From: an uncultured Eubacteriales bacterium
GTDB taxonomy: Bacteria; Bacillota; Clostridia; Christensenellales; Aristaeellaceae
Direction of reading: 5' to 3'
Length of the DNA stretch: 52,293 bases
NCBI GenBank assembly: GCA_902785105.1
Contig: CACZXF010000020.1
Span: forward strand, 1 to 52,293
Shown here piece after piece: positions 5,736 through 28,063 of the stretch; the first letter of the stretch is position 1, and the number at the start of each line of letters is the position of its first letter. Below the pieces are notes generated by a model. The model did no database searches and was not told the origin of the DNA. It was given only the letters and a program-made list of their open reading frames with translations. The position numbers and the translations under genes were made by a program.

Positions 5736-5764
5736 TTCTAACCTCACTATCCTTGAAAGGCGGC

Positions 5765-7000
5765 ATGAATATGAATCAGCAGGAGCTTTTGAAATCCGTC
5801 AATCCAAGCTACACCACCGGAAAAGGGTGCCTCGCCATGCTGCTGGGCACCGGTGACCCTGACGCTAAAGAGCTTGTCAAGGCCATCGACCTCTCTGAAC
5901 TGCAAAGGAACAATTCCACGCCGGATAATCAGACGGCAAGGGATATCGTCAGAAGCTATATGGTCGGCCAGGATGCGCGCTACAGCGTCTGGAACAAAAT
6001 CGCTCTGGACGCAGACTGCGACGTCATCATTGATCTTCCCTGCGGCTATCTGCCCCATGGCCTGGCCGTGGCCCGAATGGGGAAGACCTACTATGGCTTT
6101 GACCTTCCCGTGGTCATCAACGAAATCGCGCCCGCCATATACGGCATCTGCGAAAAGGAGCAGGGCATTTCAAAGGAGAATATCCATTACTGCTCCGTAG
6201 ACGCTACCAATTACGAATCCATGAAGAAGGCCCTGGAGGGCGTAAAGGGGAAAATCTGCATCATTACCGACGGTATGCTGGGGCTGTTCAATCGCAGTGA
6301 ACTGGATCAGGTGTGCAGGGCCGTCCGGAAGCTGCTGGTGGACTTTGGCGGAGAATGGTATACCTCTGACGCGATGAGCGTCGAGCTGATGGCGCTCAGC
6401 TATGAGGGCGTCTTTCAGAGGGACCCGCAGATCGTCCGGGCCGCCGTGGTTTCCGGGTCTGCCGCAAAATCGGATATTGAAAACTCAGAGAATCCGTTTA
6501 TCAGCTGGACTTGCGAACGGCTGAAAAAATACATGGAAGAAAGCGGCTTCAGGGTAGAGGAGTTTCCGTTTTCCGGGAAGCTCCCCGTGCTGCGCAGCGT
6601 AGACGAGGAGACTCTAAAGCGGCTGAAGGCGAGTTACGCGAAGATGATCGAATGGCGGCTCGTTCCCCGGAATGAAACCGTGGTCATCGATCCAAATCTT
6701 CCCTTTGAAGTGAAAAGCGAAGTGAAGGATGGCGTATTCATCGCCTCCATCCAGGGCCGCATGGACACGATCACGGCGCTGGAGCTGCTAAAGCGTTATC
6801 AGGAAGCGGACAGTGGCATTAATGCGATCCGGCTGGATGTGAGCCGCATGGCCTACATATCCTCCGCGGGCCTCCGGGTGCTGCTTATGATGTATAAATC
6901 CCTGCCCGACAGGGAACAATTCGACATGACCGGCGTAAGCAGCGAGGTGCGGGAGATCATGGAAACGACCGGCTTTGATCAGTTCCTGCTGAAGGACTAA
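5765..7000 (+). CDS. Class I methyltransferase-like domain fused to a C-terminal STAS domain
   Basis: The first 310 or so residues resemble an SAM-dependent methyltransferase of the leucine-carboxyl-methyltransferase type: a DVIIDLPCGYLPHGL motif I, an acidic YYGFDLP strand, and later a YCSVDATNY segment and an IITDGMLGLF strand. Residues about 320-410 form a STAS domain with the hallmark YISSAGLRVLL; in anti-sigma-factor antagonists the second Ser is the site phosphorylated by an anti-sigma kinase. A start at 5765 (or 5771) fits the AAAGGCGG RBS; an upstream TTG does not. A serine phosphatase of the SpoIIE/RsbU type is encoded at 9677-12880, so this protein may be its target. That link, and the methyl acceptor, are inference. 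Confidence 0.8.
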   Translation: MNMNQQELLKSVNPSYTTGKGCLAMLLGTGDPDAKELVKAIDLSELQRNNSTPDNQTARDIVRSYMVGQDARYSVWNKIALDADCDVIIDLPCGYLPHGLAVARMGKTYYGFDLPVVINEIAPAIYGICEKEQGISKENIHYCSVDATNYESMKKALEGVKGKICIITDGMLGLFNRSELDQVCRAVRKLLVDFGGEWYTSDAMSVELMALSYEGVFQRDPQIVRAAVVSGSAAKSDIENSENPFISWTCERLKKYMEESGFRVEEFPFSGKLPVLRSVDEETLKRLKASYAKMIEWRLVPRNETVVIDPNLPFEVKSEVKDGVFIASIQGRMDTITALELLKRYQEADSGINAIRLDVSRMAYISSAGLRVLLMMYKSLPDREQFDMTGVSSEVREIMETTGFDQFLLKD

Positions 7001-7073
7001 CAGCCACGGCGAGGGACGCTTTGCGCGAAAGCGTCTCACATTCCGTCAAATCTATAGAATCCGCTCATAACAA

Positions 7074-7101
7074 TGCAGGGGCGTCGATGGACGCCCCTGC
7101 A
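7074..7101. terminator. Bidirectional terminator between convergent genes
   Basis: A perfect 12-bp GC-rich stem (7074-7085 with 7090-7101) and 4-base loop lie between the convergent methyltransferase-STAS and phosphoglycerate mutase genes. Only short T-rich tracts flank it. Confidence 0.7.
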
Positions 7102-7133
7102 ATGTTGTTGTTCCTGGTATCATACCTCTGAAT

Positions 7134-8771
7134 CTACCTCTCCGGTTTCCTGATCAGCAGCGACTTTCCCGTCATCTCCTCCGGCTTCTCCATGCCCATC
7201 ATCTCAAGCAGGGTGGGCGCGACATCGGCCAGACAGCCGCCCTCCCTGAGGGTATAGGCGGGATCGTAATTCACCAGAATGAAGGGAACGGGATTGGTGG
7301 TGTGGGACGTCAGGGGCGCTCCCGTCTCCCTGTCCACCATCACCTCGGCGTTGCCGTGATCAGCGCAGATGAACATCTGGCCGTCCACCGCCTCGACGGC
7401 CTCCACCACCCGGCCAATGCACTTATCCAGGAAAGCGACGGCCTCTATGGCAGCCTTCTCCACGCCGGTGTGACCCACCATATCCGAGTTGGCGAAGTTC
7501 GTGATGATCACGTCATATTCGCCGGAATGGATCTTCTCCACCAGAGTATCGCAGATTGCCTGCGCGCTCATCTCCGGCGCAAGATCGTAGGTCGCCACCT
7601 TCTGGGACGGGATCAGGAAGCGGTCCTCGCCCGGGTTGGGCTCCTCCACGCCGCCGTTGAAGAAGAAGGTCACGTGGGCGTATTTCTCCGTCTCGGCGAT
7701 CCTGGCCTGCTTCCTGCCGTTGGCGGCCAGCCACTCGCCGAGGGTATTTTTTATGGTGATCTCCTCAAAGGCGACCTCCTTGTTGGGGATCGTCACGTCA
7801 TAGTCCGTAAAGCATACATAGGTCACCTGCTTCCGGGGGCCCCGGTCAAATTCGTCAAAGTCGTCGCAGCAGAAGGCGCGGGTCAGCTCCCTGGCGCGGT
7901 CCGGGCGGAAATTGAAGAAGATGATGGAATCCCCGTCGTCGATGGTGGCCACCGGCGCGCCGTCCTTCATCACCACCGTGGGGAGTATGAACTCGTCAGT
8001 CTCGCCCTTCTCATAGGACTGGGTCACGGCCTCCAGAGCGGAATCTGCCATCACGCCCTCGCCGAGGGTCAGGGCCCGGTACGCCTTTTCAAGGCGGTCC
8101 CAGCGGTTGTCCCGGTCCATGCCATAGTACCGGCCGCCCACCGTGGCGATGGCGCCGCAGCCGATCCGGTCCATCTGCTCCTGCAATTCCCGAATAAAAT
8201 CCACACCGGATTCCGGGGGCGTGTCCCGCCCGTCCATGAAGCAGTGCACATAGACCTTCTCCAGCCCCTGACGCTTCGCCAGCTCCAGCAGGGCATAGAG
8301 GTGCGTATTGTGGCTGTGTACGCCGCCATCGGAGAGCAGACCGCAGATGTGCAGGCTCGTCCCCTTTTCCTTCGCGTTGTCCATGGCCTTCAGCAGCGCC
8401 TCATTCTCGAAGAAATCGCCGTCCTCGATGGCCTTCGTGATCCGGGTGAGATCCTGATACACGATCCGCCCGGCGCCGATGTTCAAATGGCCCACCTCGG
8501 AGCTGCCCATCACCCCGTCCGGAAGGCCTACGGCCAGGCCGCTGGCATCGCCGGTCACAAAGGGACATTCCTTCATCAGGCGGTCCATCACCGGGGTGTC
8601 TGCCAGCGCGATGGCATTGTGCTCCGTTTCATCGATCACGCCGTAGCCGTCGAGGATGAGCAGCACAGTCGGTCGCTTGTGAGTTACCTCTTCCGCCGCG
8701 GCCGTCAGAGCTGTAGTAAATAACAGCGCCGCCAGCACAAACAGCAGCAACGATTTGAACCTGTGTTTCAT
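7134..8771 (-). CDS. gpmI: Exported 2,3-bisphosphoglycerate-independent phosphoglycerate mutase
   Basis: The enzyme interconverts 3- and 2-phosphoglycerate with Mn in glycolysis. All visible catalytic motifs are intact: LLILDGYG (Asp41), MGSSEVGHLN (nucleophile Ser91), SDGGVHSH, NSDMVGHTG, ADHGNAE and TSHTTNP. Length of the mature part (about 520) is normal. The oddity is the N-terminus: MKHRFKSLLLFVLAALLFTT followed by an ALTAAAEE cleavage region is a textbook signal peptide, so this glycolytic enzyme appears to be exported. The ATG at 8771 is preferred because GGGAGG lies 7 bases upstream; the ATG at 8795 has no RBS, and either start keeps the hydrophobic segment. It follows an exported MtnN gene by 28 bases, probably one operon. 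The cell presumably has a normal mutase elsewhere. Confidence 0.9.
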   Translation of the reverse strand: MKHRFKSLLLFVLAALLFTTALTAAAEEVTHKRPTVLLILDGYGVIDETEHNAIALADTPVMDRLMKECPFVTGDASGLAVGLPDGVMGSSEVGHLNIGAGRIVYQDLTRITKAIEDGDFFENEALLKAMDNAKEKGTSLHICGLLSDGGVHSHNTHLYALLELAKRQGLEKVYVHCFMDGRDTPPESGVDFIRELQEQMDRIGCGAIATVGGRYYGMDRDNRWDRLEKAYRALTLGEGVMADSALEAVTQSYEKGETDEFILPTVVMKDGAPVATIDDGDSIIFFNFRPDRARELTRAFCCDDFDEFDRGPRKQVTYVCFTDYDVTIPNKEVAFEEITIKNTLGEWLAANGRKQARIAETEKYAHVTFFFNGGVEEPNPGEDRFLIPSQKVATYDLAPEMSAQAICDTLVEKIHSGEYDVIITNFANSDMVGHTGVEKAAIEAVAFLDKCIGRVVEAVEAVDGQMFICADHGNAEVMVDRETGAPLTSHTTNPVPFILVNYDPAYTLREGGCLADVAPTLLEMMGMEKPEEMTGKSLLIRKPER

Positions 8772-8799
8772 TGGGAGCCTCCCTTCCCGCTGCATGGCC

Positions 8800-9594
8800 T
8801 CAATGTGCGATCATATACCTTGTAACGGCTGCGCAGCGCTCAGCAGCAGCCTTTTCAAATTCCACATAGGATACTTCTTCAGAATCGTCCGCCTTATCCG
8901 ATATGGCCCGGATGATCACGTAAGGCGTACCATTCAGCCAGCAGACCTGCGCGATGGCCGCGCCTTCCATTTCACAGCACAGACCGCCGAATTCGGAAAT
9001 GATGGCGTCCTTTTGCGCATGAGACGCGATGAATTGATCTCCGCTGCAAACGCGGCCTTCAAAAACGTGAATTTCCGGGGCCACGGCTGCGACGGCCTGC
9101 ACCGCGCTCTTTCGCATTGCTTCATCCGCGGGGAATACGGATACTTCACTGTATGGGATCTCTCCCCGTGCATAGCCAAGCGGCGTCACGTCCATGTCAT
9201 GCTGCACAGCTTCTGTGGAGACAACGATATCGCCGATGTCAATTTCGGCATCCAGAGAACCGGCGACGCCCGTATTGATGATCCGATCAACGCCGAACGC
9301 GCTGATCAGAAGCTGCGCGCAGCAGGCGGCGTTCACCTTGCCGACATTGCATTTCACAACGACAGCATCCGCGCCGTCCAGTTTTCCTTCGTGGAACGCC
9401 ATGCCCGCGATGACGCTGACGCGGTCATCCGTCATCGCTTCTATGAGCGAGGTCACTTCTTCCTCCATCGCGCCGATGATACCGGTCTTGGGCGATGGGT
9501 CCGCACTGATCTCCGCATAACACGGGCATGTGAAAACCATTATGAGCGCAACGAGCACTGCGCTCAAAAAACGGATACTCCTGGTGTTCTTCAT
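8800..9594 (-). CDS. mtnN: Exported 5'-methylthioadenosine/S-adenosylhomocysteine nucleosidase
   Basis: MTAN cleaves adenine from MTA, SAH and 5'-deoxyadenosine. Residues 37-264 align along the whole family: GIIGAMEEEV (general acid equivalent Glu46), INTGVAGSL, GDIVVSTEAVQHD, SGDQFI, CEMEGAAIAQVC and RAISDKAD (catalytic Asp). Residues 1-28 are an added signal peptide, MKNTRSIRFLSAVLVALIMV then FTCPCYAE, so the mature enzyme should act outside the membrane. Secreted MTAN is known in Borrelia (Bgp), otherwise the family is cytosolic. The ATG at 9594 has GGAGGA 7 bases upstream; a TTG at 9600 is less likely. It lies between the sensor phosphatase and the exported GpmI on the same strand. Confidence 0.9.
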   Translation of the reverse strand: MKNTRSIRFLSAVLVALIMVFTCPCYAEISADPSPKTGIIGAMEEEVTSLIEAMTDDRVSVIAGMAFHEGKLDGADAVVVKCNVGKVNAACCAQLLISAFGVDRIINTGVAGSLDAEIDIGDIVVSTEAVQHDMDVTPLGYARGEIPYSEVSVFPADEAMRKSAVQAVAAVAPEIHVFEGRVCSGDQFIASHAQKDAIISEFGGLCCEMEGAAIAQVCWLNGTPYVIIRAISDKADDSEEVSYVEFEKAAAERCAAVTRYMIAH

Positions 9595-9676
9595 GTTCAA
9601 TTCCTCCTCATAATGAATGGGATATGTTGGGTCAAAATATGGATGCCGCTTCTGTGCCCTGTGATCCGCGTCCCGC

Positions 9677-12600
9677 TCATGCCTCGTGGTCGGCGGGACC
9701 GTTGTATTTCAGGCACAGCATGGTGATGTCGTCAAACTGCTCCGCGTTCTCCACAAAGATGTCGATGCCGTGCATGACGTTCGAAAGCACCGCTTCGGGC
9801 TTCGCGTCGGGATCGACGTTCAGAGCGTCGATCATGCGCTCGTTGCCAAACAGCTCGTTCTGGGCGCTGGTGGCCTCCGCCACGCCGTCGGTGTAGACGA
9901 ACAGGCTGTCGCCGGGGTTGAGCTCGAAGCTGTGCTCCCTGAACCGCATGCCCTCCATGGTGGCGACGGCAGGGGAATGGCGGTAGATTTGAAGCTCATA
10001 CGCCCCGTTCGCCCTGCGCAGCGCGGGATGCTCGTGACCGGCGTTGGCGGCGACGCCCTTGCCCGTGCTGATCTCCAGCACTGCCGCCCACACGGTGACG
10101 AACAGCTCCGCCTCATTGCCCTCGCAAAGCTGCTCGTTGGCGTTCTCCAGCGCCTTGGCGGGGCTCAAACCGTTCTGCAGATGGGCCCGGATCAGCGCCC
10201 GCGCGACCATCATGAACAGCGCGGCGGGCACGCCCTTGCCGGAGACGTCGGCCATGACCAGGCCGAGGTGATCGTCGTCGATCAGGAAGAAGTCGTAGAA
10301 ATCGCCGCCGACCTCCTTGGCGGGCGTCATGCTGGCGTAGATGTCGAATTCATTGCGATCAGGGAAGGCCGGGAAGGTGTGGGGGAGTACGGAGGCCTGG
10401 ATGTTCGTCGCCAGTTGAAGCTCATTCTCAATGCGCTCTCGCTTGGCCTCCTCGCGGTGTTTGGCCTCCAGCTCGCGCATTCTCCTAGCGACATACAGCT
10501 TCACCAGCAGGGCGGTCAGCAGTATCAGCGCCAGTCCCACGAGGATGTAGAACCACACCTGCTCGTAGAACGCCTTCTCCTTGACGATCTGCACGGACAC
10601 TTCCCTGTCGCCGCGGCCCATGGAGTCCTTCAGCTCCATCGTGTAATGATAGGTGCCGCCGCGCAGGTTGGTGTAGTCCACGGGCACCATATCGCTGCGG
10701 TTGACCGTCGTGCCGCTGTGCTCGAAGCCATCCAACTGGTAGCTGACCTGGGGGTCGCTCAGCGAATAGTTGAACACATAGCTGTAAACCGTCAGCTTCT
10801 GGGTATTTGATGGGATCGTGAACCCGCCATCCGCGCTGGGATAAACCGTCTCACCATCCACCTCCACGAATGGGACCGTCGCTTTCAGGTCGTCCACATT
10901 CTCAAAGGGCTGCTCGATGTTGACCTTGCAGATGCCGGTGGTGCCGGCGATGTACAGATCCCCACTGTCGGTCAGCTCGCTGTAGGAATTGGCCGTGGTG
11001 ATGCAGGGCAGGCCGTTGGCGATGCTGTAGTAGACGGGGTTGATCTCCCCGTTGGCGATCATTTCCTCGGCGGGTGTCACGTAGATGCCGTTGCTGGAGA
11101 GCACCCACATGTCGCCCTTGCTGTTCTCAAAGAGGTCGAAGTTGTTGCTGTAGGGGAACTTCTGCACCGTCGTCACCTGGTAATCCGGCGTCATGTAGGC
11201 GATGGCACTGCTGGTGACGATCCAGATCAGATCCCGCTTCGGGTCGCGCTTTAAGCGCATCACGATGTCGGAGGGGAGCCCGTCCTCCACATTGATGTTC
11301 CGCACGCCGGATTCGTTGATGATGTAAAGGCCGCCGCCGTTGGAGCCGAGGACGATGTCGCCGTCCGTTCCTTCGCAGACGGTGAGGCTCTCGGTATTGA
11401 CGATGCCGTCCGCCTCGCCGTAGGAGGCGACGATGCTCTCGCCGTCGATGACGTTCACGCCGCCGGTGAGCGCCACGAGGATCGTGCCATCCCTGCGTTC
11501 ACAGACGGCGCGCATGCTGTTGGACAGCGGGCCGTCGCCCTGGGCAAACACGGTCAGCTCGCCCTTCGCGTAGCGCAGCAGCCCGTACTTGCGCCAGGTG
11601 GAGATCCAGAGCCGGTCCTGGCTGTCGCGGATGATGGAGCGGATGCGGCAGCCGTCCAGCAGCTTGATCAGGTCATCCGTCTCCACATCCGCCTCAAACG
11701 CCGCGCCGGTGTTGGTCACGGCCTTTGTCAGCGGAAGGCTGGAAACCGGGCCGTTTTCGCCAATGACGATCAGTCCCGCGTCCGTGGCGACGAACAGCTT
11801 GCCCTCGCACATGCAGGTGGAATTCACCACCTGCGTCGGCAGACTGTACCGCTCAAACAGGTCGGAAAACTGGTTGGGCACCACCTTCATCACGCCCTGG
11901 CGTGTGGAGGTGAACCAGAGATTGCCCAGGTAGTCCCGCATCACATGGCCGATGGAGTTGTTCATCGGCAGGTCCTCCAGCACCCGGATGCCGCCGTCCG
12001 TCAGCACGCCGATGCCGTGGGAGGCGCAGATCCACACCTTCCCGTCGATGTATTCCATCTGCTGAACGGAACTCAGCGGCTGAATGTCGATAGGTTCAAG
12101 ATCGGTGAGGTTGTCCCCGTAGGTCGCGTGATAGAAGCCGAAGTCGCCGCCCTCAAACCAGAGCTTGCCGGGCTCCGACGGATCGGGGAGCATGGATGCC
12201 ACGCCCTGCACGGGGCTTTCCTCCGCACTGAGGAAGCTGATCAGCGCGCCGTCCTTGATCTTCATCAGGTCGCCGAAGTTGGTCAGGCCGTAGATGATGC
12301 CGTCGCTGCCCATACGCAGATCCCGCATGTTCGCCTCGGCAATGGCTTCATCTTCCATCATCCGCAGGTTTCCCTCCGGATCGATCACCGCGATGCCGCA
12401 GGTCGTGGCGACGTAGATCGTGCCGTTTTCATCGCCCGTGATGGCGCGGGTGTGTGCCGACAGCATGCCGTCCAGCTTGCCCCACTTGCGCAGCTCGCCT
12501 TTTTCCAGCACCGCGACGCCGTTGTCGTTGGTCCCGATCCACAGGCGGTCCTGTCCGTCCACGAACAGGCACTTGATGCTGGTGATGCCGCTGGTGGAAT

Positions 12601-12880
12601 CCATGCGCACGAAGGTATTGCCGTCGTAACGGATCAGCCCGCCATAGCTGCCGATCCATATGAAGCCCTCCGAGGTCTGCACGATGGCGTTGGCTTCAGA
12701 GGTAGGCAGACCATTGGTATTGTCATACAGCATCGCGGAGAAGTTTTCGGGCTGGTTCACGGGGTCCACGGTGCGCACGCCGTCCGCGCTTGCCGCGCTT
12801 AAATTCAGTATCATGAGGAGCGCCACAAACAGATACAAACAGCGGTGCCGACTTCTCTTGTACCTTTTCTTTTTCGTCAC
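9677..12880 (-). CDS. Two-component-propeller sensor with SpoIIE/RsbU serine phosphatase output
   Basis: The 1067-residue protein has a basic signal/anchor sequence, then about 650 residues of regulator-propeller repeats (GLPTSEANAIVQTSEGFIWI, DRLWIGTNDNG, GNLWFTSTRQG, and so on) that should form extracellular beta-propellers. A Y_Y_Y Ig-like domain comes next (about 690-755), then a transmembrane helix (near 765-790), a coiled coil rich in E/R/K, and a PP2C domain from about 820 with EVGGDFYDFF, MADVSGKGVPAALFM and LFVYTDGVAEA. This is the Bacteroidetes hybrid-sensor layout with the kinase replaced by a SpoIIE phosphatase that would dephosphorylate a STAS antagonist. The start is GTG, ten bases after GGGAGGA, with a good promoter upstream. 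The ligand is unknown. Confidence 0.9.
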   Translation of the reverse strand: MTKKKRYKRSRHRCLYLFVALLMILNLSAASADGVRTVDPVNQPENFSAMLYDNTNGLPTSEANAIVQTSEGFIWIGSYGGLIRYDGNTFVRMDSTSGITSIKCLFVDGQDRLWIGTNDNGVAVLEKGELRKWGKLDGMLSAHTRAITGDENGTIYVATTCGIAVIDPEGNLRMMEDEAIAEANMRDLRMGSDGIIYGLTNFGDLMKIKDGALISFLSAEESPVQGVASMLPDPSEPGKLWFEGGDFGFYHATYGDNLTDLEPIDIQPLSSVQQMEYIDGKVWICASHGIGVLTDGGIRVLEDLPMNNSIGHVMRDYLGNLWFTSTRQGVMKVVPNQFSDLFERYSLPTQVVNSTCMCEGKLFVATDAGLIVIGENGPVSSLPLTKAVTNTGAAFEADVETDDLIKLLDGCRIRSIIRDSQDRLWISTWRKYGLLRYAKGELTVFAQGDGPLSNSMRAVCERRDGTILVALTGGVNVIDGESIVASYGEADGIVNTESLTVCEGTDGDIVLGSNGGGLYIINESGVRNINVEDGLPSDIVMRLKRDPKRDLIWIVTSSAIAYMTPDYQVTTVQKFPYSNNFDLFENSKGDMWVLSSNGIYVTPAEEMIANGEINPVYYSIANGLPCITTANSYSELTDSGDLYIAGTTGICKVNIEQPFENVDDLKATVPFVEVDGETVYPSADGGFTIPSNTQKLTVYSYVFNYSLSDPQVSYQLDGFEHSGTTVNRSDMVPVDYTNLRGGTYHYTMELKDSMGRGDREVSVQIVKEKAFYEQVWFYILVGLALILLTALLVKLYVARRMRELEAKHREEAKRERIENELQLATNIQASVLPHTFPAFPDRNEFDIYASMTPAKEVGGDFYDFFLIDDDHLGLVMADVSGKGVPAALFMMVARALIRAHLQNGLSPAKALENANEQLCEGNEAELFVTVWAAVLEISTGKGVAANAGHEHPALRRANGAYELQIYRHSPAVATMEGMRFREHSFELNPGDSLFVYTDGVAEATSAQNELFGNERMIDALNVDPDAKPEAVLSNVMHGIDIFVENAEQFDDITMLCLKYNGPADHEA

Positions 12881-27098: not shown

Positions 27099-27467
27099 AT
27101 GAACGAACGGGAGATCATACAGGAGATGTACCGGAAATACTGGCGGTACATGATTGAAAAGGATGCGGACGGTCTGCGGAGCCTGATGGCGAAGGACTAC
27201 TATCTCATGCACATGACTGGCGTGAAGCAGTCCGCGGAGGTGTTTCTGAAGGGACTGCTGGATGGGACATTCAACTACTATTCCGCCGAACACGACAGCA
27301 TTGAGGTCAAAATTGACGGTGACCGGGCGACGATGATCGGACGCAGCCGTGTGTCCGCTGCCGTGTACGGCGGGCGTAGGAGCCCCTGGCGCTTGCAGGG
27401 GGATTTCACTCTGCGGAAGGAGCGGGGAATATGGCGCTTCACCAGCTCCCGGGCATCGACCTATTGA
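27099..27467 (+). CDS. NTF2-like/SnoaL-type small protein
   Basis: The 122-residue protein matches nuclear-transport-factor-2-like folds: an N-terminal helix (REIIQEMYRKYWRYMIEKDA), a DYYLMHMTG strand and later strands VKIDGDRATMIGRSRV and FTLRKERGIWRFTSSRAS. Members are small enzymes or ligand-binding cones. The start is set at ATG 27099, right after the flavodoxin stop; a GTG further upstream would overlap it. It sits inside the redox operon, 20 bases before the next gene. Confidence 0.8.
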   Translation: MNEREIIQEMYRKYWRYMIEKDADGLRSLMAKDYYLMHMTGVKQSAEVFLKGLLDGTFNYYSAEHDSIEVKIDGDRATMIGRSRVSAAVYGGRRSPWRLQGDFTLRKERGIWRFTSSRASTY

Positions 27468-27487
27468 CGAGGAAAGGAAATCGAAGC

Positions 27488-28063
27488 ATGAAAAGAATTG
27501 CTATTCTGCTGTTTGCCCTGATGCTGATGAGCGGTTCTCTGGCCGAGGGGGTTCTGGTAACCTATTTCTCCCATGCGGGCGAGAACTACAACGTGGGCGT
27601 GATCGAGGAGGGCAACACCGCGAAGCTGGCAAAGGTGATCGCGGAACAGACCGGCGCGGAGCTGTTTGAGATCGTGCCCGTCGTTGACTATCCCCATTCC
27701 TACGACGAATGCCTGGAGGTCGCCACCGCCGAGCAGCGCAAGGGCGCCCGCCCGGAGTACGTGGGCGACGTGGAGAATTGGGATCAGTACGATACCGTCT
27801 TCATCGGCTATCCGATCTGGTGGGGCGAGATTCCCAACATCGTGTATACCTTCATGGAGAACCACGATTTCGCGGGCAAGACCGTAATTCCCTTCAATAC
27901 CCATGAAGGCAGCGGTCAGTCCCACAGCCAGCGGGACATCGAAAAGACGCTGCCCGGCGCAACCGTGTTGAAGGGACTTGCGGTGCGCGGCGCGACCGCG
28001 CAAAACGACGCGGACGCCACGTCGAAGGCGGTTTCGGATTGGCTGAGCGGACTTGGAATGTAA
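27488..28063 (+). CDS. Exported flavodoxin-like protein
   Basis: The 191-residue protein has a clear signal peptide (MKRIAILLFALMLMSGSLAE) followed by a full flavodoxin: LVTYFSHAGENYNVGVIEEG, then NTAKLAKVIAE, an IGYPIWWGEIPNIVYTFM aromatic loop and FNTHEGSGQSHSQRDIEK. It should carry FMN outside the membrane, unusual for this family. The start is chosen because a longer frame from 27431 lies inside the previous gene and AGGAAAGGA precedes ATG 27488. It may pass electrons to exported flavoproteins such as the one at 594; inference. Confidence 0.87.
   Translation: MKRIAILLFALMLMSGSLAEGVLVTYFSHAGENYNVGVIEEGNTAKLAKVIAEQTGAELFEIVPVVDYPHSYDECLEVATAEQRKGARPEYVGDVENWDQYDTVFIGYPIWWGEIPNIVYTFMENHDFAGKTVIPFNTHEGSGQSHSQRDIEKTLPGATVLKGLAVRGATAQNDADATSKAVSDWLSGLGM

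Follow-up and report, generated by a model that had tools for sequence, protein, structure and literature searches.

The 52,293-nucleotide stretch of DNA analysed here (the window; contig CACZXF010000020.1 of assembly GCA_902785105.1, from an uncultured Eubacteriales bacterium of the family Aristaeellaceae) encodes two enzymes with N-terminal Sec-type leaders: a paralogue of the phosphoglycerate mutase (PGM) GpmI and a paralogue of MtnN, a 5'-methylthioadenosine/S-adenosylhomocysteine (MTA/SAH) nucleosidase (MTAN). The genes lie on the minus strand, mtnN before gpmI, separated by 28 bases (8772-8799). Coordinates, strand, gap, leaders and complete catalytic domains are as an initial annotation of this DNA described them.

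7134..8771, minus strand: gpmI paralogue P0001, 545 amino acids, 2,3-bisphosphoglycerate-independent PGM (iPGM) plus N-terminal Sec leader (Pfam, TIGR01307, residue check)
8694..8771, minus strand: predicted GpmI signal peptide, 26 codons, cut between AAA and EE (leader scan)
8778..8783, minus strand: Shine-Dalgarno sequence GGGAGG of gpmI (by eye)
8499..8504, minus strand: GpmI codons 90-91, Ser90 (8502-8504) and the nucleophile Ser91 (8499-8501; Ser62 of 1ejj) (alignment)
8800..9594, minus strand: mtnN paralogue P0002, 264 amino acids, MTA/SAH nucleosidase plus N-terminal Sec leader (Pfam, NF004079, TIGR01704)
9514..9594, minus strand: predicted MtnN signal peptide, 27 codons, cut between CYA and EI (leader scan)
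9603..9608, minus strand: Shine-Dalgarno sequence AGGAGG of mtnN (by eye)
7074..7101, minus strand: terminator-like hairpin with a 12-bp stem, 3' of gpmI and, on the other strand, 3' of a convergent STAS gene (consensus match only)

Leaders and start sites

Leaders were judged by a simple scan written for this analysis, and the cleavage sites are our own prediction. The GpmI leader reads MKHRFKSLLLFVLAALLFTTALTAAA, with predicted cleavage before EE, and the MtnN leader MKNTRSIRFLSAVLVALIMVFTCPCYA, with predicted cleavage before EI. At both true starts the scan recognized a positive n-region, a hydrophobic h-region and an A-x-A-like c-region. In neither gene does an in-frame start codon follow the leader ahead of the first catalytic-domain strand, and therefore a later start cannot yield a whole leaderless domain. 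Among aligned GpmI proteins the scan was positive in 10 of 11 rows of the exported clade described below and in 0 of 98 other rows. Chance leaders are excluded because relatives share them and the control rows are negative. Sequence analysis confirmed that gpmI and mtnN are predicted to encode complete enzymes behind Sec-type leaders.

Wrong starts, a chimeric contig or contamination could in principle mimic this arrangement, and the assembly is fragmented (131 contigs, 91.9% complete, 1.8% contamination). We consider such an artefact very improbable. Leader-bearing GpmI orthologues with 76-89% identity to the window protein are known from nine other genomes, of which G218 and G300 are near copies (G, C and L numbers are our handles for genomes, contigs and loci), and exported mtnN orthologues are present in three genus mates. 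The ATG of each window gene, moreover, has a good Shine-Dalgarno site, and neither gene has an alternative start.

Catalytic sites

GpmI matches Pfam iPGM_N (1.6e-92) and Metalloenzyme (4e-82) across the whole protein and scores 725.7 bits against TIGR01307 (cut-off 330.65); the stricter NF003897 cut-off (862) lies above both the exported protein (685) and the leaderless GpmI of the same genome (634). MtnN matches PNP_UDP_1 (8e-54) and exceeds the cut-offs of NF004079 (259.6 versus 169 bits) and TIGR01704 (168.2 versus 73.8). The metal, nucleophile and substrate residues of 1ejj, which we take to be D12, S62, H123, R153, D154, R185, R191, R261, R264, K336, D403, H407, D444, H445 and H462, are all retained (15/15) in the 11 exported GpmI rows and in the 98 others. 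For MTAN, the presumed catalytic residues E12, E174 and D197 (E. coli numbering) have equivalents in all 32 aligned rows, one of 33 (L057) having been dropped when its start motif was not found. The initial annotation is supported on this point: both are exported-type paralogues whose active sites are intact.

One position next to the GpmI nucleophile sets the exported proteins apart. Alignment column 90 is Ser in 11/11 exported rows and Asn in 98/98 others, whereas the nucleophile itself (column 91) is Ser in every row. Columns 448 and 452, mostly hydrophobic exchanges, were picked out by the same scan for differences. Asn before the nucleophile (motif MGNSEVGH), whose value as a mark of the GpmI family is a matter of our judgement, is invariant in the 98 other rows and replaced in the exported clade. 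The exported proteins resemble GpmI as represented by TIGR01307 and 1ejj in whole domain architecture and all checked residues, and differ in having a Sec leader, Ser for Asn, a more acidic character and another PGM in the genome.

The preserved sites bear on the possibility that both proteins serve at the surface as adhesins or for binding, with catalysis incidental. Surface glycolytic enzymes have been much written about, a PGM ectoenzyme is reported from Schistosoma (PMC9461710), and the Borrelia protein Bgp is both an adhesin that binds glycosaminoglycans and an MTAN, according to PMC7557402. A pure binding function would not need the catalytic residues kept in every exported GpmI and every aligned MTAN, and in neither window protein does Pfam show an additional domain for binding or anchoring. 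What MtnN shares with a Bgp-like adhesin is a leader and an MTAN domain only. We regard structural moonlighting as improbable.

Distribution and ancestry

The exported GpmI clade was found in 11 of 308 genomes of the family, representing 2 of 50 genera (E <= 1e-215). A search of 396 genomes of the order placed it in three, all already known. The leader is intact in 10 of the 11 clade genomes; one further genome (G108) has only a C-terminal gpmI remnant left. An additional leader-bearing member, from RUG11951 (L072), was present among the best 80 of 594 confirmed stretches. A GpmI tree with 109 rows, built by a quick method with SH-aLRT values and no bootstrap, unites the 11 exported rows in one clade (SH-aLRT 100). 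This clade groups with six Lachnospiraceae-type rows, and 27 of the 28 ordinary GpmI rows from the window's family fall outside that group. This placement suggests that a Lachnospiraceae-type gene was probably acquired and that the leader was gained once. Recent duplication of the genome's own gpmI was considered as an origin and rejected, as exported GpmI falls with the Lachnospiraceae-type rows and the own leaderless copy lies elsewhere in the tree. Mature GpmI is under purifying selection, with ratios of nonsynonymous to synonymous substitution (dN/dS) of 0.13-0.26 over nine pairs.

For MTAN, 300 family genomes were searched, 257 matched and the best 30 matches were made into loci, so that leader counts are lower bounds. 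Leader-bearing orthologues of MtnN with 61-85% identity occur in at least 11 other genomes, and one more (L056) at 51%. A second clade, about 36% identical, is present in 10 of 308 genomes; a leader was recognized by eye in seven of the ten, and the motif used did not recover the other three. Leaders were called in 16 of 32 MTAN rows, while the remaining 16 begin 2-6 codons before the domain, including two leaderless rows within the first clade (L052, L054). Leader-bearing MTANs of the family comprise two divergent clades, in a tree with long branches. In one genome (G283, L168:5760-6452 and 6595-7386) a second-clade exported MTAN follows a protein whose leader is the same and whose start is related.

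Exported MTAN had been credited with a single precedent. There are at least two, both in Borrelia burgdorferi, where Bgp (BB0588) and the plasmid-borne MtnN (BBI06) are exported beside a leaderless paralogue (PMC7557402), and exported MTAN recurs in the present family. The Borrelia enzymes resemble the window MtnN as signal-peptide MTA/SAH nucleosidases accompanied by a leaderless paralogue; they belong to another phylum, whereas here two divergent leader-bearing clades occur in one Clostridia family. Titles and abstract openings among the literature matches listed gave no precedent for a Sec-exported bacterial iPGM, a weak negative.

Leaderless copies and other phosphoglycerate mutases

Leaderless copies of both genes, whose absence would by its own terms have refuted the initial annotation, are present in the same genome: gpmI at C16:30448-31956, behind an apparent pgk-tpi pair, and mtnN at C10:34149-34829, behind apparent ispDF (neighbours by eye). 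A separate leaderless PGM is encoded in 10 of the 11 exported-GpmI genomes. This second enzyme is an iPGM of another type in the window genome, G222, G283, G204, G112, G218 and G300, and the unrelated enzyme dPGM in G086, G192 and G258; none was seen in G172, whose genome is 89% complete. Because 10 of the 11 genomes encode another PGM, glycolysis is probably not the job of exported GpmI, which appears to be retained mostly where another PGM can serve that pathway.

A circularly permuted PGM was also observed, in which GpmI residues ~247-540 are matched first and 33-241 second. It occurs at L278 (G103:C31, two genes), L279 (G055), L280 (G018), L281 (G105), L282 (G061), L283 (G087), L284 (G100) and L285 (G258:C19). 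The protein is one open frame in the six loci whose frame was read, and at L278 the Pfam order is Metalloenzyme, then iPGM_N. No circularly permuted PGM was found by title or abstract opening among the literature matches listed.

Charge of the mature proteins

A 425-kb sample of the genome was assembled from the window and 20 stretches, taken from contigs with known hits and hence not random. In this sample soluble leader-bearing proteins have a median net charge per residue of -0.087 (n=41) versus -0.020 for proteins without a leader (n=189; p ~1e-13). Exported GpmI rows average -0.073 versus -0.048 for Lachnospiraceae-type GpmI, with ranges that just touch. Window MtnN stands at -0.093. Charge could be measured in 20 of 33 MTAN rows. 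Values lie between -0.071 and -0.106 in 11 first-clade leader-bearing proteins and between -0.056 and -0.111 in three second-clade proteins, compared with -0.035 to -0.061 in six leaderless ones. The acidity of the mature parts therefore supports a life outside, independently of the leader.

Gene neighbourhood and co-occurrence

Two neighbours of the pair encode proteins of regulatory type.

9677..12880, minus strand: SpoIIE-type PP2C phosphatase, 1067 amino acids, with a Reg_prop propeller and a hydrophobic N-terminus (by eye) (Pfam SpoIIE 9e-46, Reg_prop 5e-22)
5753..7000, plus strand: STAS domain protein (anti-sigma antagonist type), convergent neighbour, N part methyltransferase-like (Pfam STAS 2e-10)

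The SpoIIE gene lies 82 bases upstream of mtnN on the same strand, and SpoIIE, mtnN and gpmI form one directon, with the terminator-like hairpin behind it. The N part of the STAS gene product resembles an S-adenosylmethionine-dependent methyltransferase by eye, with no Pfam hit. Three features here go beyond the initial annotation: the upstream SpoIIE gene, the Ser-for-Asn exchange of GpmI and a third exported-type enzyme, prephenate dehydratase (see below).

We compared 13 exported-gpmI loci, excluding the near copies L187 and L179 and using a few seed proteins; some flanks are short, the G192 contig ending ~0.6 kb upstream of gpmI. A SpoIIE, MATE or STAS gene is near exported gpmI in 6 of these loci. 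SpoIIE-type phosphatase genes occur in the window, G172:C44 and G283. Over 1067 amino acids the window SpoIIE shares 90.6% identity with its counterpart in G172:C44. That locus reads SpoIIE, MATE, gpmI, ABC transporter, with SpoIIE two genes ahead of gpmI, and the window has mtnN in the place of MATE. MATE genes lie directly upstream of exported gpmI in G258, G172:C44 and G204 and encode proteins 89-98% identical to each other. STAS genes are found near gpmI in the window, in G258 and beside the gpmI remnant of G108, the latter two 38-41% identical to that of the window. RsbU/RsbV/RsbW partner switching combines a PP2C phosphatase, a STAS antagonist and a HATPase kinase; of these components, SpoIIE and STAS were found, and a MATE C-terminal domain matched HATPase_c_2 at E=0.18 only, below the cut-off.

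An exported-mtnN locus (G288, L155) has mtnN, SpoIIE, MATE and AMP-binding genes in a row, and MATE is near a leader-bearing MTAN in 6 of 15 loci, not counting the window. MATE genes are abundant (26-80 domain matches in 16 genomes), SpoIIE rarer (7-13 in 4 genomes). Since most MATE genes close to exported mtnN belong to different subfamilies and each genome has many, their proximity is a lead only.

The initial annotation treated the two enzymes as encoded together. Adjacency holds in the window, but a conserved mtnN-gpmI pair is not supported: with some flanks short, mtnN is in the flank at only 1 of 13 exported-gpmI loci, namely the window. The exported enzymes do co-occur within the genus, at 5 of 6 versus 3 of 22 of its 28 genomes (Fisher 0.003; phylogeny uncorrected).

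At L181:6126-8752 (minus strand) two related proteins were noted; the one whose sequence was read has an HxxxDG motif like that of condensation/acyltransferase enzymes, and neither has a Pfam hit.

Other leader-bearing enzymes

Relatives of a leader-bearing prephenate dehydratase were detected at E <= 1e-60 in 38 of 308 genomes, the window genome among them (C40, L240:5357-6271); of the 30 loci read (L188-L217), 26 show a leader by eye. Amino-acid ABC genes (matches of >=33%) lie within ~4 kb in 4 of 21 loci (own genome, G108, G146 and G222). Exported prephenate dehydratase suggests a wider habit of exporting metabolic enzymes. At L202:262-2313 (also L213 and L189 by look) a HAD-type phosphatase-like domain, just under the cut-off, precedes prephenate dehydratase in one frame.

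Among 351 genes called in the 425-kb sample, 52 were soluble leader-bearing candidates, and Pfam was run on 33 of these (29 plus 4 from the window). Nine of the 29 had no family and most others belonged to usual secreted families; apart from GpmI and MtnN, the clear cases of a cytosolic type were prephenate dehydratase and a flavodoxin. The candidates put through Pfam thus did not support the view that cytosolic-type enzymes commonly have leaders in this genome. The window encodes a flavodoxin-family protein with a Sec-type leader at 27431-28063 (plus strand).

Exported chorismate mutase/cyclohexadienyl dehydratase fusions offer a comparison. According to PMC10520331, cytoplasmic versions exist elsewhere, some exported fusions lie beside transporter and binding-protein genes, and the authors propose a signalling or interbacterial role. 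These too are exported versions of central-metabolism enzymes; they differ in reaction, fold and host (Proteobacteria) and are relevant mainly to the exported prephenate dehydratase.

Proposed function

The leaders, extra copies, single clade, selection, intact sites, Ser-for-Asn exchange and SpoIIE neighbour are present in the sequence; export, cleavage and activity outside we infer. We tentatively favour, with somewhat less than even confidence, a role in which exported GpmI and MtnN act on small metabolites beyond the membrane, within a regulated module, and do not serve glycolysis. By tree and alignment, exported GpmI derives from a Lachnospiraceae-type gene that gained a leader, and it has Ser instead of Asn before the nucleophile. 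Together with a SpoIIE-type phosphatase gene, mtnN and gpmI share one directon ending in the terminator-like hairpin. Both proteins would be made as Sec precursors and released or anchored outside the cytoplasmic membrane, where intact sites and selection suggest that they work as enzymes, housekeeping being left to the leaderless copies. There the substrate of GpmI may be a phosphate ester, on which it would work as a mutase or a phosphatase, and MtnN may cut 5'-thio- or 5'-deoxy-adenosine, both processing metabolites released by the cell or its neighbours. Linkage in some loci further suggests a regulated exchange module with the SpoIIE phosphatase, MATE exporter and ABC importer genes.

Several observations weigh against this proposal. 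Exported GpmI is rare in the family and patchily distributed. The operon copy of gpmI in G172, one of two there, is split over two frames and the leader of G222 (also L134) is broken; assembly error is possible in both cases, and the two together indicate that gpmI may be dispensable. Seven of the 13 exported-gpmI loci have no SpoIIE, MATE or STAS gene in the flank. Co-occurrence with exported MTAN weakens to 4/5 versus 2/12 among 17 genomes >=90% complete (Fisher 0.028), and to 0.02 and 0.19 when the two MTAN clades are taken apart, phylogeny uncorrected in each. Finally, obligate anaerobes tend to keep Cys out of exported proteins (PMC12453122), a tendency and not a rule, and neither enzyme conforms. 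GpmI has 11 Cys (2.0%) and MtnN 10 (3.8%), both above the genome medians for other leader-bearing proteins (0.95%, n=50) and proteins without a leader (1.7%, n=189); the exported clade has 9-12 Cys versus 7-11 in its six leaderless sisters, and cysteines have not been lost.

High Cys content would fit N-terminally anchored membrane proteins, or proteins poorly exported and mainly active inside, as would the long hydrophobic, anchor-like leader of the RUG11951 GpmI. By eye, many GpmI leaders instead finish in an A-x-A-like site ahead of charged residues, the acidity of the mature proteins is close to that of exported ones, and proteins anchored outside would still count as exported. Failure of release is, in our estimate, unlikely, at about the level of structural moonlighting or slightly below.

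Plain nutrient salvage is a close rival of the regulated module, possible although on the less probable side. MtnN would cut MTA, SAH or 5'-deoxyadenosine from lysed rumen microbes, yielding adenine and a ribose derivative for uptake, and GpmI would handle phosphoglycerates of the lysate as mutase or phosphatase, with SpoIIE and MATE adjacency incidental. Intact active sites in both enzymes are consistent with salvage, as are the seven loci in which no regulatory neighbour was seen and the three of 13 loci with amino-acid ABC permease genes (beside gpmI in G258 and G172:C44, 6 kb off in G283). Exported Borrelia MTANs have been proposed as adenine suppliers (PMC7557402), and the adenine or MTA salvage role put forward in the initial annotation, whose interpretation overall is partly supported, is possible for MtnN. 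Conversion of 3-phosphoglycerate to 2-phosphoglycerate yields no nutrient, however, and the SpoIIE synteny and fixed Ser-for-Asn exchange suggest a more specific role. In addition, the rumen is phosphate-rich, and phosphate scavenging is not obviously useful there.

A bolder form of the regulated-module proposal, which we think unlikely, is that leader capture and the Ser-for-Asn exchange turned exported GpmI into a new extracytoplasmic phosphatase or phosphotransferase. It would complete or inactivate a phosphorylated metabolite that a MATE protein, such as the one beside gpmI in relatives, exports; exported MTAN would carry out the corresponding step on a metabolite bearing adenosine, and both would be controlled by a SpoIIE/STAS switch. 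StrK-type secreted enzymes of the alkaline-phosphatase superfamily dephosphorylate an exported antibiotic precursor. GpmI resembles them as an exported-type metalloenzyme of that superfamily with MATE, AMP-binding or condensation-like genes near in some relatives. It differs in belonging to the GpmI family and not to the alkaline phosphatases, and such neighbours occur in only some loci: MATE upstream in 3 of 13, AMP-binding enzymes within ~7 kb in 3 (G172:C9, G283 and G204) and, in 1, a pair of genes that look condensation-like by eye but have no Pfam hit. No kinase or phosphorylating gene or product that would fit such a scheme was identified in the exported-gpmI loci examined.

Glycolytic enzymes found outside cells are usually explained by leaderless moonlighting or leakage. 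Here a lineage apparently reserves a separate, leader-bearing, selected and slightly altered GpmI for the outside and encodes another mutase for glycolysis, which lets genetics and enzymology ask directly what a glycolytic enzyme does outside the cell. Together with the exported MTAN and prephenate dehydratase of these genomes, it suggests that some gut anaerobes may run pieces of central metabolism, or signalling derived from it, beyond the membrane.

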